Shown: one piece after another, positions 8,873-24,253 of the stretch
Layout: each line of letters begins with the position of its first letter
Position numbering within the stretch: the first letter of the stretch is position 1
Virus record (IMG/VR): IMGVR_UViG_3300034121_000904
Span: 1-24,929 of that record
Source: a virus
Strand: one strand, 5' to 3'
DNA length: 24,929 nucleotides
Position numbers and translations under genes: made by a program
The notes under the pieces: model-generated
What the model was told of the DNA's origin: nothing
What the model saw: only the letters and a program-made list of their open reading frames with translations
The model's database searches: none

Positions 8873-9348
8873 TGAGTAGTTTTAACTTTAAAAAAATCTT
8901 CGGTTACTAAAAGGTATTGCCAACCTCTAGCTTTAGCATAATCTTCGGCGGCAGCTTTCTTACACATATTTATAGTCCATGTTTCAAAAGCCCATTTATA
9001 ACTTTTGATAGACTTCGGAGTTTTCTTTTTAGGTTCATTCGGTTTTCTTAATTGAGCTTTTGGTTTTACCTCAATTATAAACGTTTCACCGCTAGAAAGA
9101 GTAATTAAATAATCAGGATAATAACTATGATATTTATTATCAAAAGGGCTAAAATACCTTATAACGAAAGATTCCGACGACCAAGAAATGATCGCCGGAT
9201 TTCTTTCACAATATAAGCAAAATTTTTTCTCCCAAGAAGACCTATAAATTATAGGTCCATTTCCTATATATTTTTTACATTCCGAAATAGGCACATACCC
9301 CTGAATGAAACCAGATTTCTTAGAAGGTTTTATATTTTTTATAGACAT
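8869..9348 (-). CDS. 4: Head completion nuclease-fold protein, T4 gp4 type
   Basis: This 159-residue protein corresponds to T4 gp4, needed to finish filled heads before tail joining. The best evidence is the run IIYRSSWEKKFCLYCERNP (33-51) with SWSSESFVIRYF, which parallels T4 YRSNWEKFFFEW and WGSETAVIPYF. It is followed by a PD-(D/E)xK-like nuclease signature, YYPDY (D79) and FIIEVKPK (E93, K95), and RGWQYLLVTEDF near the end. The start ATG (9346-9348) lies inside the 3' end of the upstream endonuclease gene in another frame. The first 17 codons after the start are an alternative-codon version of the gp4 remnant at 10115-10183, showing that this 5' end was supplied or rebuilt when the endonuclease inserted. 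Confidence 0.87.
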   Translation of the reverse strand: MSIKNIKPSKKSGFIQGYVPISECKKYIGNGPIIYRSSWEKKFCLYCERNPAIISWSSESFVIRYFSPFDNKYHSYYPDYLITLSSGETFIIEVKPKAQLRKPNEPKKKTPKSIKSYKWAFETWTINMCKKAAAEDYAKARGWQYLLVTEDFFKVKTTQ

Positions 9349-10040
9349 AAAGGTTTTGTCTTTTCAAAAAGATATTGATTTTTATCATATAGATTTTTTT
9401 CAATATTAAATGCTCTTATTGATGGATAATTTTTAATTAAATTTTTATCCATATCAAAAACATTAACTTCTATACGATTTTTCATAGCTAATCTAGTAGA
9501 ATTAGATATTAATTCTTTTTGTTCTTTAGTTCTAAATTTTCCAGTATTAGCTTTACTTATCTTATCTTTAGTTTCTTGTGAATATTTATTTCCTAAATTT
9601 CCATAATTAGGTTTTTGATTTTTCATCAAATTTGACATATAAATCTTTCGATCTTCTGTCCATATTGAGCCAGAAACACCTTCACCGCCATTAGTTAAAT
9701 TTGTCAAAGATCCTTCTTTTAAATCAGATCTACCTATTAATTTAATAAAATATCGTTCTAATCTAAATGCACTATATTCAGTTAAATTATCATAAAGTTT
9801 GTATCTAATCGGCTCTAATCCATATTCATCTATTTTTCTTATTGTATGAATTTTTTTAGTAGACCAGGATCTTTTTCCCGATATATTTCCGATTTGTAAA
9901 GCTTCGTATACGTGAAAATCTATTCTTCCATCTTTTCCCTTTCCTATATAAAAAGGTTCAAAATCAAAATAAAATCTTCCATATTCAAATTTGCCTGGTT
10001 TTAATGGATTTAAGTAAACATACACATAAAAAGAATCCAT
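9339..10040 (-). CDS. GIY-YIG homing endonuclease inserted in the 5' end of gene 4
   Basis: This is a 233-residue free-standing homing endonuclease. The N-terminal GIY-YIG-type nuclease has FYVYVYLNP (4-12) for GIY and EPFYIGKGKDGR (28-39) for YIG, then a helix with LERYFIKLIG supplying the likely catalytic Glu. NxxNGGEG and repeated NUMOD3-like DNA-binding units (YGNLGNKYSQETKDKIS, TGKFRTKEQKELIS) follow, then a NUMOD1-like C-terminal segment (VNVFDMDKNLIKNYPSI). It lies between an orphan gp4 N-terminal fragment and the intact gp4 gene and overlaps the gp4 start by 10 bases. A hairpin ends one base before its ATG. Its usual effect would be to cut alleles of gene 4 lacking the insertion and spread itself by recombination. 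Confidence 0.85.
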   Translation of the reverse strand: MDSFYVYVYLNPLKPGKFEYGRFYFDFEPFYIGKGKDGRIDFHVYEALQIGNISGKRSWSTKKIHTIRKIDEYGLEPIRYKLYDNLTEYSAFRLERYFIKLIGRSDLKEGSLTNLTNGGEGVSGSIWTEDRKIYMSNLMKNQKPNYGNLGNKYSQETKDKISKANTGKFRTKEQKELISNSTRLAMKNRIEVNVFDMDKNLIKNYPSIRAFNIEKNLYDKNQYLFEKTKPLCL

Positions 10041-10041
10041 C

Positions 10042-10100
10042 CTTTTATTTTATATATTCAAGGATATATTAAAAAATAACCTTGAAATACAAAATAAAAG
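10042..10100 (-). promoter_or_regulatory. Start-codon-abutting hairpin with late-promoter-like motif, before endonuclease
   Basis: The arms CTTTTATTTT (10042-10051) and AAAATAAAAG (10091-10100) pair perfectly, and TTCAAGG (10057-10063) pairs with CCTTGAA (10080-10086); a small internal loop separates the two helices and the apical loop is 16 bases. On the minus strand the 3' arm ends one base before the endonuclease ATG, so the ribosome entry region is paired. TATATAAAA lies in that arm (10048-10056). The arrangement recalls T4 intron endonuclease leaders, where a hairpin blocks translation of read-through mRNA. Confidence 0.75.
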
Positions 10101-10114
10101 AATAGATTATTTAT

Positions 10115-11872: not shown

Positions 11873-12229
11873 TTATATTGAATATATTCCATCAGAATCA
11901 GGAGAAGACTTACCGCTTAGAGAAATAGTTCCTTTGTATTTACCAGGATGTAATTTATTCCAGCCTTTAGCATATCCATTTTTTGCAATTTGCGTATAGA
12001 ATGAAAATGCATTTTTAGTTTTTTCTGGTTTAAATCTATCCCAATACTTGAACAAATCTAATAAGGCAAAAGAGATGCAATCTTCTCGATCCATAGGATT
12101 ATCATACGATAATCTAGTATTGGCTCGATATGCTAATAAAGTTAGCATTTCTGCTGCTCTTTTTGTAAGCTTTTTTTGTCCTAACGAAACACAAATTTCG
12201 TCGTATAATTCTTTTGGTTTGATATACAT
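11873..12229 (-). CDS. 55: Late-transcription sigma factor, T4 gp55 type (short)
   Basis: This 118-residue protein resembles gp55, the phage sigma factor that directs host RNA polymerase to late promoters with the help of the sliding clamp. The section DREDCISFALLDLFKYWDRF followed by NAFSFYTQIAKNGYAKGWNK (about 45-95) parallels T4 gp55 around QEMIADGIEASIKGLHNFD and [20 protein letters not shown], a sigma region 2-like helical segment. T4 gp55 has 185 residues and ends in a clamp-binding peptide; this one is a third shorter and ends SPDSDGIYSI. It sits among virion genes. Candidate late promoters in this window fit its presence. Confidence 0.78.
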   Translation of the reverse strand: MYIKPKELYDEICVSLGQKKLTKRAAEMLTLLAYRANTRLSYDNPMDREDCISFALLDLFKYWDRFKPEKTKNAFSFYTQIAKNGYAKGWNKLHPGKYKGTISLSGKSSPDSDGIYSI

Positions 12230-14358: not shown

Positions 14359-14369
14359 TTTATATATCT
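14359..14369 (-). promoter_or_regulatory. Candidate late promoter, AGATATATAAA
   Basis: The minus strand reads TTAAGATATATAAATAAAAA; the motif starts on the last base of the gp15-like stop codon and ends about 15 bases before the next ATG. It contains both TATATAA and the T4-like TATAAATA. Confidence 0.5.
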
Positions 14370-15223
14370 TAAACTGTTGGAGGTAATGTTGTACTCGGAC
14401 TATTTGGCCAAGTAGGATCTGGAGAATTACCTGAATATGTATATCCTATTGAACCTTCGGGTAGAGGATCTCCAGTATTAGTATTTAACTTAGTAGATCC
14501 ATAAACAATAGGAGGGACTAAGATATTTCCACCGAAAGTTTCCATTCGATTTCCAGCAAATATTTCAGTTCCGGGTTTAAATATCGGCATGTGTGATTTT
14601 ACTTCCAATGAAAATTTTACTTTAAATTCTTGCTTATCGGTAAAGCTAAATTCTACACTCCTTTCGTGGGCCTGTTCATCCGGAAATGTAATAAGACACG
14701 GTATTCTAGTATATGCAATATCTACTTGATATGATTTAGCTTTATAGAAAGTTCTAATAATAGCTTCTGAACATTTCATTTGATCTAATATAGAATCTAC
14801 ATAAATATCAACTTCTAGATTCATAAGTATTGGAACCATAAAAGCTTCAGCGTTATACGTATTTAATGTTCCATCATCCTCTTGTTTTAGATAGTTCATT
14901 CTTATGTATTTGTTCACTATAGCTTGTGTATCTATACTAAATCCACTAAATTGAACAATTCCTCTAGGTATTTGGTTGTAGAATGTTTCTGCTTGTAGCA
15001 TTTCAGGATCAAAATCTATATTATTTAAGAAATTGTCCTGTAAGTATCTTTCCGTTCCTGTAGTACTAAAATAAAAAGGAACGTTTATTTCTAATTTATC
15101 TTCAACCGAAGATCCTATCTGATTATACCATCCTATAGAATCATTTAGAGTAGCTAAAAGACCTATAATGATATTTCTTAAAGCAACATCATCTTTGTTA
15201 AAATGTAAATCGTAAACTCCCAT
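14369..15223 (-). CDS. 15: Tail sheath stabiliser/completion protein, T4 gp15-like
   Basis: This 284-residue protein has the layout of T4 gp15 (272 aa), which caps the tail tube and sheath and joins tail to head. The ordered resemblances are: an N-terminal helix with ATLNDSIG, then INVPFYFSTTG (T4 FIRVPITYAS); NQIPRGIVQFSGFSID (T4 ILPRINLHLVDFSYN); YNAEAFMVPILMNLEVDIYV followed by DSILDQM (T4 YNPSPIKMIYELSIF then IVEQILPYF); VEFSFTDKQEFKVKFSLEVK and PIFKPG (T4 WSLTFEVNGWMYPPV). The Pro/Thr/Ser-rich C-terminus also resembles T4. Identity is low, so this call rests on pattern order rather than a long match. It follows gp46 directly, with a promoter-like motif across the gp46 stop. Confidence 0.6.
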   Translation of the reverse strand: MGVYDLHFNKDDVALRNIIIGLLATLNDSIGWYNQIGSSVEDKLEINVPFYFSTTGTERYLQDNFLNNIDFDPEMLQAETFYNQIPRGIVQFSGFSIDTQAIVNKYIRMNYLKQEDDGTLNTYNAEAFMVPILMNLEVDIYVDSILDQMKCSEAIIRTFYKAKSYQVDIAYTRIPCLITFPDEQAHERSVEFSFTDKQEFKVKFSLEVKSHMPIFKPGTEIFAGNRMETFGGNILVPPIVYGSTKLNTNTGDPLPEGSIGYTYSGNSPDPTWPNSPSTTLPPTV

Positions 15224-15240
15224 ATTTCTATTGTATATAC

Positions 15241-15250
15241 TTTATATATC
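15241..15250 (-). promoter_or_regulatory. Candidate late promoter, GATATATAAA
   Basis: The minus strand reads CATGATATATAAAGTA; the motif overlaps the gp46 TGA stop codon and ends about 18 bases before the gp15-like ATG. It lies where the replication genes end and the virion genes begin, a natural place for a late promoter. Confidence 0.5.
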
Positions 15251-21344: not shown

Positions 21345-22547
21345 TTAAAAGAGTGAGCCTGCAGTATATGCAAGACTAGGATGAAGAGCTGGAAGGCCAG
21401 CTGGTACAATAATTCTATTTAAAGGATCTAGAATAGTTTTTTGAAATTGAGTTTCTATATCCATTGGTGGTGCAAACTCTGAAGGATAATTTCCTGATTT
21501 ATAAGCGAATACGTCACAAAATTGATCTTTTGCATGATACCATTTAATTTTATCACCGGATCTTATAAGTTCATATTTACCTTTTAATTTCTTTTCTTGA
21601 TTTAAAAGGTAATTATGATGACCGCCTGCTCTAACGTGAATAGGACATCCGCTTTTCATTTCAAATCTATCTTGATCGTTTAGGATAAATTTATTGTATT
21701 CGGAAATACTTCTAGACATCGAGATTTTTTCAATATTAGAAATTTTAAATTCTTTCTTAATTTCCTTTATTAGCTTTACTAGATCACCGCTGTCTTTTGC
21801 AGTAATTTTTTTCTTAGAAAAGATATGTTTTACTGCTTCGATCAATTTCAATCTACAAAATTGAGGAGTTGAAGATTGAATAATTTCTAGACCTGTAGTT
21901 TTAATATAAGTCAAATTATCATAATCTTTTCCGTCTTTCCATATGATATTTTGTACATATTTTTTCTTAGCAACCCAAATAGCGTTTTCAGCTATAGTTT
22001 CTAACTCAAAATCTAAAAAGTTTTCAGTATTTCTAGCTTTTGCATAATCATCTAGAACCTTTTTAACGTAAGCTGCTAATCTTTGATTATTAAGAATAAG
22101 TACAAAATCTTTAACAGAACCTTTCCAATTTATCGATTCAATAACTTCTTCGAAAATAAGATATCCTGAATCAGTATCAGTATATTTCCAAATATTACCT
22201 TTGATAGGTTTTACAACCCAATCAGGATCGATATTAAAATGTTCTAGAAGTTGTTTGTCTAAATGAAAAAATTCTTTGAAATATTTGTCAACCATCTTTT
22301 CTGTGAATTTGATGGCATCTTGTCCTTGAAGAGTTACAGTTTCTGCAATTGCAATATTATAGAAGTGAAAATACTCATTAGCAAATGCACCATAAATAGA
22401 ATTAATAATGAGCTTGATACTTTGCTCAATAGTAAAAGATCTAAGCGATTCTTCTTTAAGTTCTTTAATCTGATCAGTGGTAAGAGTATCAAAATCTAAG
22501 TTTTTTATATCTTCAATTGTTAAATCTCTTATTATTAATTTATTCAT
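21345..22547 (-). CDS. 43: DNA polymerase family B, C-terminal half of T4 gp43
   Basis: This 400-residue protein covers only the C-terminal half of gp43 (T4: 898 aa). Motif B KLIINSIYG (45-53), motif C YTDTDSGYL (122-130) with its metal-binding aspartates, and the KKKY thumb motif (194-197) are present. TTGLEIIQSSTP and the CPIHVRAG segment match the T4 thumb region. The 3'-5' exonuclease and motif A (the other catalytic Asp) are absent and must come from a separate N-terminal polypeptide not in this window. The C-terminus stops at SLF, whereas T4 gp43 continues with the clamp-binding SLFDMFDF. Its ATG overlaps the TGA of the upstream homing endonuclease (ATGA), which suggests that the endonuclease insertion caused or accompanied the split. 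Confidence 0.92.
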   Translation of the reverse strand: MNKLIIRDLTIEDIKNLDFDTLTTDQIKELKEESLRSFTIEQSIKLIINSIYGAFANEYFHFYNIAIAETVTLQGQDAIKFTEKMVDKYFKEFFHLDKQLLEHFNIDPDWVVKPIKGNIWKYTDTDSGYLIFEEVIESINWKGSVKDFVLILNNQRLAAYVKKVLDDYAKARNTENFLDFELETIAENAIWVAKKKYVQNIIWKDGKDYDNLTYIKTTGLEIIQSSTPQFCRLKLIEAVKHIFSKKKITAKDSGDLVKLIKEIKKEFKISNIEKISMSRSISEYNKFILNDQDRFEMKSGCPIHVRAGGHHNYLLNQEKKLKGKYELIRSGDKIKWYHAKDQFCDVFAYKSGNYPSEFAPPMDIETQFQKTILDPLNRIIVPAGLPALHPSLAYTAGSLF

Positions 22548-23173
22548 AAATACTTGTAATTAGGAAAATTATCGGATTTTAATCTATATGTTAATGTTGG
22601 TTGTTTGATTCCTAAAGTATTACAAGCAGAAGCGAGAGAAATATAAATCACACCATCAATTTCTATTTTTTTTGCTCTAGAAGAATCTTCTCCAGTAAAT
22701 TTACCTATTCGAACCAAAGATAATTTTTTCTTAGTTTCTTCAGTATGTTTAGTACCATATCTAGGATGATTTTCGCCTTTCCAAGTAGATCTAATTTTCT
22801 TACCTGATTCTCCATATTGTTTTATAGAGGGATGTTCGTCTTTAGTTAATCCTTTATTCCAAGGATCTTTTCCTAATCTAGATCCACAATGACCTCCACC
22901 AGTAGTTAAATTATATCCTAATGGATTATTTTTCCTATATGTATTATGTGCATAAATCATTTGTTTTTCTAGTTTTGAAAGCTCTTCCTTTGTAAATTCA
23001 CCTTCGATTAAAATTATTTTTTCATAATCATCAACAGTAAATACCTGAGATTTTATTTCTTCTTGTATTATAGTTGAACTTGTGAAATATGATCCTCTAC
23101 CAGTTCTTTTACCTACATAAACGAAATTATTTATCTTGTTGATTATCTTGTAAATATAACCGTATTTTTTCAT
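22544..23173 (-). CDS. GIY-YIG homing endonuclease upstream of split polymerase
   Basis: This 209-residue protein has YGYIYKIIN (4-12) and FVYVGKRTGRG (17-27) as the GIY-YIG core, then LEKQMI with the likely catalytic Glu and NLTTGGGH. The C-terminal half contains NUMOD3-like DNA-binding units (GENHPRYGTKHTEETKKKLS, RIGKFTGEDSS) and a NUMOD1-type helix-turn-helix end (SLASACNTLGIKQPTLTYRLKS). It lies between gp45 and the polymerase C-half; its stop overlaps the polymerase start. A perfect 14-bp hairpin ends one base before its ATG with a late-promoter-like motif in the loop. No intron or intein splice features were recognised, so it looks free-standing. Confidence 0.88.
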   Translation of the reverse strand: MKKYGYIYKIINKINNFVYVGKRTGRGSYFTSSTIIQEEIKSQVFTVDDYEKIILIEGEFTKEELSKLEKQMIYAHNTYRKNNPLGYNLTTGGGHCGSRLGKDPWNKGLTKDEHPSIKQYGESGKKIRSTWKGENHPRYGTKHTEETKKKLSLVRIGKFTGEDSSRAKKIEIDGVIYISLASACNTLGIKQPTLTYRLKSDNFPNYKYL

Positions 23174-23174
23174 T

Positions 23175-23216
23175 TTAATTATTAGTTTTATTTATATATT
23201 CTAAACTAATAATTAA
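23175..23216 (-). promoter_or_regulatory. Perfect 14-bp hairpin with late-promoter-like motif in its loop
   Basis: The arms TTAATTATTAGTTT (23175-23188) and AAACTAATAATTAA (23203-23216) are exact reverse complements. On the minus strand the 14-base loop carries AGAATATATAAA (also touching the first stem bases), and the 3' arm stops one base before the endonuclease ATG. Read-through mRNA would fold and hide the start, whereas an mRNA begun at the loop promoter would lack the 5' arm and stay open. This is the logic described for the T4 td-intron endonuclease I-TevI. Confidence 0.8.
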
Positions 23217-23247
23217 TTTATATTATTTGATAGATTTTTAACGTTTA

Positions 23248-23994
23248 TCATTCAGTAATTGCAAGATTAAGAGCAACCATAGTATTAGATTCTTCAGAAA
23301 CGAGAATCATTTTATTTTCACACATAATTACTTTATACGTTTCTTTATCGATCCGTTGTAAAAATGATTTAAAAATAGAAGATTTAGATTCTGTCTTTTT
23401 GTAATTATCGTCAATAACAAGGTCAAAAGATTCTGATTTAAAATGAACTCCTGCTTTATCAGAATATAGCTCGAAAAGTTCACCTTTATCTAGAGTTTGT
23501 AGAGCTGATACTTTAGATAGAGTATCCGAGGATAATTTAAATTCATAAACTTTAGATGAAAGATCGAAAGCTCGTTTTACTTGGTCAGCAGTCATAGATG
23601 TAAATCCTAAAGAAATATCTTGACAATGAATTTCGATTTTTAATTGATTATCTTTTAGAATAATCTTTTCAGCATAAAGAATATCGTCGTCTTCGTCTTT
23701 GAATGTGTGGATTTCCGCTGAAAGATGATGAGGATCAAAATATCCTAAGCAAGAAAGAAATTTTTGTCCTGAAAAGAATGATAATTTAATAGTATCATCT
23801 AAAGGTTTTTCAAATTGGAAAACTTCTGTAGCAGGTAACCAAATGGATTTTACAACATCTTTTGTTGGAGTATATACGTCTGACCAAATTCTTTCTGAAT
23901 TGATATTAAGATATACGGAAGTATCCATCAAAAGCATTCTCTTGACTAGAGAAGTTAAATGAGGAACCGATATCTTTTTAACTTGAATTTTCAT
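23248..23994 (-). CDS. 45: Sliding clamp, T4 gp45-like
   Basis: From the ATG at 23992-23994 this is a 248-residue protein; an earlier ATG at 24048 would overlap the previous gene by 29 bases and is less likely. T4 gp45 has 228 residues. Repeated beta-alpha-beta blocks fit a clamp fold, including SLGFTSMTADQVKRAFDLSS, YEFKLSSDTLSKVSAL and the closing strands ETYKVIMCENKMILVSEE plus NTMVALNL, which parallel T4 YKLLLWAKGKQGAAKF and NYVVALEADS. Its place in the replication cluster supports the call. In T4 the clamp tethers polymerase and, with gp55, activates late transcription. Similarity is at pattern level, so confidence is good but not absolute. Confidence 0.75.
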   Translation of the reverse strand: MKIQVKKISVPHLTSLVKRMLLMDTSVYLNINSERIWSDVYTPTKDVVKSIWLPATEVFQFEKPLDDTIKLSFFSGQKFLSCLGYFDPHHLSAEIHTFKDEDDDILYAEKIILKDNQLKIEIHCQDISLGFTSMTADQVKRAFDLSSKVYEFKLSSDTLSKVSALQTLDKGELFELYSDKAGVHFKSESFDLVIDDNYKKTESKSSIFKSFLQRIDKETYKVIMCENKMILVSEESNTMVALNLAITE

Positions 23995-24019
23995 TTGTTT
24001 TTTCTTTATTATATGTATG

Positions 24020-24253
24020 TTATTGGTTTTCTGATTCTTGCCATCCATCTTTGTTCAACATAACTACCCACGAAGGAATATCCTTAGCTGTAACCATAGA
24101 AGTTTGTGAAGATTTATTAGTTTTTAAATCGTATTTTATGATGTATATAAACCAAGGATCATCAGCATCTTCGTAAAATTTATAGCACGTTTTTGCCTTT
24201 GGTTTATTAAAAATTTTTATCAATTTTCCAAGTGTAGGATTAGTCTTCTTCAT
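24020..24253 (-). CDS. Small unknown protein upstream of the clamp
   Basis: This 77-residue protein is not recognised. The first 20 residues are basic (KKTNPTLGKLIKIFNKPKAK); the remainder looks like a small alpha/beta fold with aromatic residues (YKFYEDADDPWFIYIIKYDL, PSWVVMLNKDGW). Its start overlaps the preceding gene by 14 bases, and the clamp gene begins 25 bases after its stop, so it is part of the same operon. Confidence 0.65.
   Translation of the reverse strand: MKKTNPTLGKLIKIFNKPKAKTCYKFYEDADDPWFIYIIKYDLKTNKSSQTSMVTAKDIPSWVVMLNKDGWQESENQ

Follow-up and report, generated by a model that had tools for sequence, protein, structure and literature searches.

Combined control by a late promoter and a hairpin is known for I-TevI, segB, mobE of Aeh1 and gene e of T4 (PMC2988022, PMC3014915). 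In the T4 td intron, the leader of I-TevI comprises a late promoter and a hairpin (Gott 1988; Edgell 2004; Gibb and Edgell 2010; as reviewed in PMC2988022 and PMC3014915). The genes mobE of Aeh1 (HNH, located between nrd genes) and segB of T4 (located in a tRNA region) are free-standing members of early operons with hairpin-controlled starts, and gene e (lysozyme), soc and 49 of T4 are late genes on early read-through RNA on which a hairpin silences them until a late promoter takes over. Most T4 cases sequester a Shine-Dalgarno site; the T4 review allows for hiding of the Shine-Dalgarno site, the AUG, or both (PMC3014915). Among open-licence papers, no precedents other than those of the T4 type were found. 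Here we describe a leader in an IMG/VR virus record, whose analysed stretch of 24.9 kb (G+C = 30%) is referred to as the window. The leader precedes an inserted homing endonuclease gene, and its hairpin is best explained, with a probability of about 0.74, as a switch built from a late promoter and a start-occluding structure.

The window encodes a T4-type gene set, consisting according to Pfam of a Gp23-like capsid protein, a DnaB-like helicase, a RecA-like protein and a family-B polymerase, as well as a gp46-like gene. A gp55-like late sigma factor (11873..12229; this, the polymerase, clamp and endonuclease loci and both hairpins of the window are on the minus strand) is assigned by its match to phrog_234, late sigma transcription factor (2.5e-9), together with a weak Pfam match to Sigma70_r2. 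The family-B DNA polymerase is split, and its C-terminal half (21345..22547) is identified by Pfam DNA_pol_B, phrog_1918 and a comparison of the junction. The gene directly upstream of the endonuclease gene (23248..24048) has neither a Pfam nor a PHROG match; from gene order, and from its position and similarity across relatives, we take it to encode a sliding clamp. None of the 28 window genes has a Shine-Dalgarno-like site, and in relatives the Shine-Dalgarno signal is near background (5% versus 3% expected). Bacteroidetes naturally lack Shine-Dalgarno sites, and their initiation is tuned by the secondary structure of the start region and by upstream adenines (PMC6847099). Because Shine-Dalgarno sites are missing, and in view of the nearest cultured relatives, the phages, T4-like members of a large group without Shine-Dalgarno sites, probably infect Bacteroidota.

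The gene in question codes for a GIY-YIG homing endonuclease of 209 aa (22544..23173) and lies between the clamp gene and the gene for the polymerase C-terminal half. Its product has a C-terminal I-TevI_DNA-bd domain (Pfam, 3e-11) and NUMOD3 (2e-7), and matches the homing endonucleases of phrog_314 (3.5e-27); the GIY-YIG match at the N-terminus is weak (2.7e-4, below the Pfam cut-off). With this domain set, and with a site that is empty in relatives, the protein belongs to the I-TevI-like GIY-YIG endonucleases. In the related contigs examined, the gene for the polymerase C-terminal half adjoins the clamp gene directly or is separated from it by one further reading frame, a 58-aa ORF in some relatives and a methyltransferase-like gene in others (L066, L067, L079), and in none of them is an endonuclease gene next to the clamp gene. 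As judged from gene order, the gap between clamp and polymerase looks like a hotspot of insertion. No HNH_3 endonucleases were found in close relatives. Relatives without the endonuclease also carry the split polymerase, and the split is therefore older than the insertion. Chryseobacterium phage MA9V-2 likewise has two polymerase genes, annotated there (L456, 983-7206) with a TnpB-family gene between them.

The point of insertion can be located within the polymerase gene. After the clamp stop, the window reads MINVKNLS, which resembles the polymerase start MINVENLS of a relative (L064), and then diverges. This remnant of the displaced start of the polymerase C-terminal half (23213..23251) reads MINVKNLSNNIN up to a stop codon and is homologous to the relative up to about 23228. 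Homology resumes in the N-terminus of the current polymerase (RDLTIEDIKNL in the window, ENLSLDEIKNL in the relative), so that the insertion lies about eight codons inside the gene. The current polymerase ATG overlaps the endonuclease stop codon (ATGA). The hairpin starts about 11-12 nt past the remnant, and was therefore either brought along by the inserted DNA or formed within it.

Along the transcript, the leader consists of TTAATTATTAGTTT (5' arm, 23203..23216), AGAATATATAAATA (loop of 14 nt, 23189..23202), AAACTAATAATTAA (3' arm, 23175..23188), A (23174) and ATG (start codon, 23171..23173). All 14 of 14 positions of the arms are paired (100% complementary), a single base separates the hairpin from the ATG, and the 3' arm is the A-rich context of the start codon that would be hidden. 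The initial annotation proved correct in describing a perfect 14-bp inverted repeat with a 14-base loop one base from the ATG. The promoter-like motif that it placed in the loop is also there, although the exact motif TATAAATA takes in one base beyond the loop, and the loop sequence had been written with 13 nt instead of 14. No other inverted repeat in the window reaches 14 bp with a loop of at most 20 nt; 200 dinucleotide shuffles contain on average 0.03 such repeats per window (one or more in 2%), even without any demand for a position one base from a start. Among the 28 window genes tested, the endonuclease gene alone has a stem next to its start that runs for 8 bp or more without interruption. 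The stem is almost entirely A-U and, at -9.7 kcal/mol, is a modest structure. The best homologue of the endonuclease (52%) matches just its C-terminal part and is not preceded by a comparable leader, and no close homologue of the exact leader (23171-23216) was found.

The late-promoter box TATATAAATA (23189..23198) has an exact TATAAATA, the late box and late consensus of T4, at 23196-23189. It is one A shorter than GATATATAAAATAAAA, the variant found in relatives. A scan of the relatives for GATATATAAAATAAAA, blind to gene identity, returned at least 120 matches; among the matches listed, the motif is found about 15-30 nt upstream of genes recognisable as those for tail tube, baseplate wedge, portal and prohead protease, with further matches in support of the baseplate and portal assignments. 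Its place before virion genes makes it very probable that these phages use GATATATAAAATAAAA as their late promoter. The exact promoter has no match in the cultured phage MA9V-2 and in one huge-phage genome, so this variant is not universal in the wider group. Distances between promoter and ATG are 15-26 nt among the matches listed (e.g., L171 658-673, L217), which corresponds to late mRNA leaders of about 0-11 nt, some of them possibly leaderless. By analogy with T4, transcription in the window is predicted to start (+1) near 23183.

Hairpin, box in the loop, insertion, the place of the promoter in relatives and the complementarity kept in other endonuclease leaders are read from the sequence; from these we infer a transcription start, a read-through RNA and translational repression. 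Early and middle transcripts running from the clamp gene into the polymerase gene would hold both arms, and the hairpin would hide the A-rich stretch just before the AUG and leave the endonuclease untranslated, while the downstream polymerase start would stay usable on the same RNA. Later, the gp55-type sigma factor together with the clamp would activate late promoters, and initiation driven by the TATAAATA box in the loop would begin some 10 nt ahead of the AUG and yield an RNA without the 5' arm that does not fold and from which the endonuclease would be translated. The predicted energy for opening the region from -14 to +6 is 7.1 kcal/mol in the read-through RNA (within the top 10% of 443 genes of relatives) versus 0.1 kcal/mol in the late RNA (start 9-13 nt before the AUG). 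These folding costs of the long and the late RNA point to an order in which a silent endonuclease and a usable polymerase would be followed by late expression of the endonuclease. In a group without Shine-Dalgarno sites, what the hairpin would mask is the AUG with its A-rich surroundings, and not a Shine-Dalgarno site as in T4.

A second hairpin of the window (10030..10112) has a stem that runs through the start codon of a LEM-3-type GIY-YIG gene (9339-10040). The initial annotation described the geometry of the two hairpins (the second at 10042-10100) as identical, which we cannot uphold: the second exceeds the first in length and strength (-31 to -40 kcal/mol), its stem covers the ATG and codon 2, and its promoter box TATATAAAATAAAA is located in the 3' arm, not in the loop. 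Its opening cost of 21.6 kcal/mol makes it the strongest start-region structure of the window genes tested, above all 443 genes of relatives, and its promoter leaves nearly no 5' leader. The arm sequences of both hairpins had been said to differ, and on comparison they are indeed unrelated.

The evidence from endonuclease leaders as a class is stronger than that from the window leader alone. Hairpins that enclose the promoter and end at the start were scored in relatives without regard to gene identity, with endonucleases labelled by Pfam in some cases and by motif reading in the rest. Among the matches listed, such hairpins (dG <= -5) precede 10 of 25 endonuclease genes, compared to 3 of 62 other late-promoter genes (Fisher, 1.3e-4), and many endonuclease genes with the same promoter have none. 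A strict rule of uninterrupted stems gives a weak enrichment in the promoter-selected sets (P = 0.0075, among the matches listed), and a scan with the promoter variant of the window adds further GIY-YIG genes, two of three with a hairpin. A family of 80 endonuclease homologues, found from protein only, has start-occluding hairpins in most of its leaders; an uninterrupted stem of at least 8 bp occurs in 19 of 59 leaders of this family, in 7 of 151 neighbouring genes, in 14 of 437 genes of relatives, and in 0.9% of shuffles.

We note that a consensus fold of 38 homologous leaders (RNAalifold) contains zero pairs, because the register of pairing shifts. Since registers differ between leaders, a swap test was chosen, in which the pairing of a leader's own 5' and 3' halves is compared with the pairing of halves taken from other leaders. 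Own pairing is stronger in 50 leaders of one endonuclease family (z = -10.1, with near-identical leaders removed and remaining relatedness not fully corrected), as well as in 25 other, promoter-selected endonuclease leaders (z = -6.4), and there is no effect in 62 non-endonuclease genes with the same promoter (z = +1.0), the latter two sets being among the matches listed. At the level of sequence, the test is evidence of covariation that does not depend on register or on an alignment of pairs. It bears out the earlier proposal that selection retains a start-occluding hairpin although arm sequences differ, as both sets of endonuclease leaders pair with themselves and the non-endonuclease genes do not. 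Arm covariation, which had been suggested as a check, gives a divided picture: complementarity is kept in endonuclease leaders as a class, but in one pair of homologues (L423 versus L454) a change in the arm is uncompensated, and many endonuclease genes carry the promoter but no hairpin.

Different endonucleases have arms that bear no relation to one another and that frequently base-pair past the AUG with coding sequence. With a register that shifts freely, the selected property would be the hiding of the start codon and not any one structure. We consider the chances about even that 5' arms evolved independently in unrelated homing endonucleases (several GIY-YIG kinds, DUF7487/Vsr-like) and in a GH19 endolysin, each complementary to the start region of its own gene, in some cases to the first codons of that gene, and placed around a late promoter. 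In the endolysin gene (assigned by Pfam; L180 8237, plus strand), a hairpin of 9 bp encloses the late promoter and immediately precedes the ATG; the gene is the clearest non-endonuclease case of this kind among the matches listed.

The same features bear on other explanations of the window hairpin. The palindrome might work as DNA, namely as an operator around the late promoter to which some other regulator binds, or the endonuclease itself, which would then repress its own gene as I-TevI does. I-TevI binds an operator that overlaps its own late promoter and resembles its homing site (PMC2988022), and the window endonuclease has a DNA-binding domain of the I-TevI type. A comparison of the leader with the empty target site in ten relatives, however, gives no significant similarity, and arms that are unrelated between endonucleases and often pair across the AUG are expected for start hiding rather than for a protein site. 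An autorepressor operator that resembles the homing site is a property of I-TevI and not of the whole family. As a replacement for the RNA switch we consider an operator unlikely; it could act in addition. No more probable is a chance palindrome in AT-rich DNA next to a promoter that alone matters. A-T pairs make up nearly the whole stem, the genome is low in G+C, and hairpin-free endonuclease promoters are common among the matches listed, yet the shuffles make such a repeat rare at any position, and endonuclease leaders as a class are specifically self-complementary.

If the hairpin served the clamp gene, as a terminator of transcription or a site of RNA processing at its end, this would fit a position some 30 nt past the clamp stop codon, in the same direction. 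The arms contain no G+C-rich stem, however, and no T run follows on the transcribed strand; an essential polymerase half lies downstream, and nothing of the kind is present at the junction in relatives that lack the endonuclease, so that we regard this function as very improbable. Least probable of all is that the leader was copied as a module among endonuclease genes and that the resemblance reflects descent: the promoter box is held in common, but the two window hairpins have unrelated arms, as do other endonuclease leaders, the register is shifted, and there is no consensus fold.

Taken together, hairpin, promoter, insertion, folding and swap test make a switch of the type known for I-TevI, mobE and lysozyme the best explanation, and the window hairpin is, on sequence grounds, probably a functional switch, known in kind but new in its setting. 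The leader has a start-covering inverted repeat, a promoter placed such that late RNA would lose the 5' arm, and a gp55-type sigma factor in the same window; Shine-Dalgarno sequestration is absent, with the AUG context predicted to be hidden in its place. As the T4 review allows for AUG hiding, we regard the leader as a variant of this type. The parallel to I-TevI drawn by the initial annotation is strengthened by the swap test, by the position of the promoter upstream of virion genes and by the gp55-like sigma factor. Like I-TevI, the window endonuclease is a GIY-YIG protein with NUMOD3 and I-TevI-type DNA-binding parts, and its gene has a hairpin that would hide the start region in read-through RNA and a late promoter from which the late RNA would lose part of it. 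In contrast to I-TevI, the window gene is free-standing and not intronic, the stem is A-U, there is no Shine-Dalgarno site, and no operator-like similarity between leader and target was detected.

The setting of mobE has a parallel in an endonuclease gene between nrdB and nrdA (L200), and a setting like that of segB is found in family A2, which is mostly located just after tRNA genes; these cases differ from mobE and segB in phage group, promoter sequence and endonuclease families, and the arms are unrelated. The endolysin gene of L180 has the same layout as gene e, but its lysin family is unrelated (GH19) and there is no Shine-Dalgarno site. The gene seg43 of Aeromonas phage 25, named after gene 43, is likewise an endonuclease gene tied to a DNA polymerase gene, with a stable hairpin beside the start. 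This hairpin does not cover the ribosome-binding site (PMC2988022), and a further difference is that the polymerase split in the window predates the endonuclease insertion.

The principle itself is familiar from T4; the leaders described here suggest that many uncultured phages without ordinary ribosome-binding sites arrive at it with unrelated sequences, and hence that the RNA switch is a recurrent solution in diverse uncultured phages, including those without Shine-Dalgarno sites, rather than a peculiarity of T4. If true, start hiding makes the insertion of endonucleases into essential operons tolerable, and the window locus hints at how a mobile gene could occupy the 5' end of an essential polymerase gene, unexpressed early. 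With the swap test, switches of this type can be detected in sequence data without regard to register, and it can be tested whether selection acts on start hiding or on a particular fold.

Hairpin endonucleases are found by replication or metabolism genes (L200, L163, L244, L209 and the window gene 22544-23173), and endonucleases by virion genes have no or weak hairpins (L139, L166, L193, L222, L100, L103). The pattern suggests a confinement of hairpins to early operons, but we do not claim it, as the hairpin-less L156, L182 and L226 are also by early genes, and the second endonuclease of the window, with the strongest hairpin, is apparently located among virion-assembly genes. Family A2 (L376-L455) is a large GIY-YIG family (MARKxKKYHYIYKTTN...) whose leaders have TTTTTGTACTTT and ATATTTATnnnAAAA in common, the latter a possible variant of the late promoter, and again the hairpin register shifts. 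In the relatives G002 and G005, promoter-enclosing start hairpins also precede two nuclease-like genes (RAP/DUF559 and TnsA-like) and a gene for an 82-aa protein (L122 11750-12571, L125 7238-8047, L117 15849-16097); a homologue of the latter is located just upstream of an endonuclease gene in G005. A gp15-like tail-sheath stabiliser gene (window 14369-15250; L115 12518-13618) is located directly 3' of gp46-like recombination genes; the window copy has an irregular start-adjacent hairpin only, and the orthologue in G002 has one of 9 bp with the late promoter in the loop.
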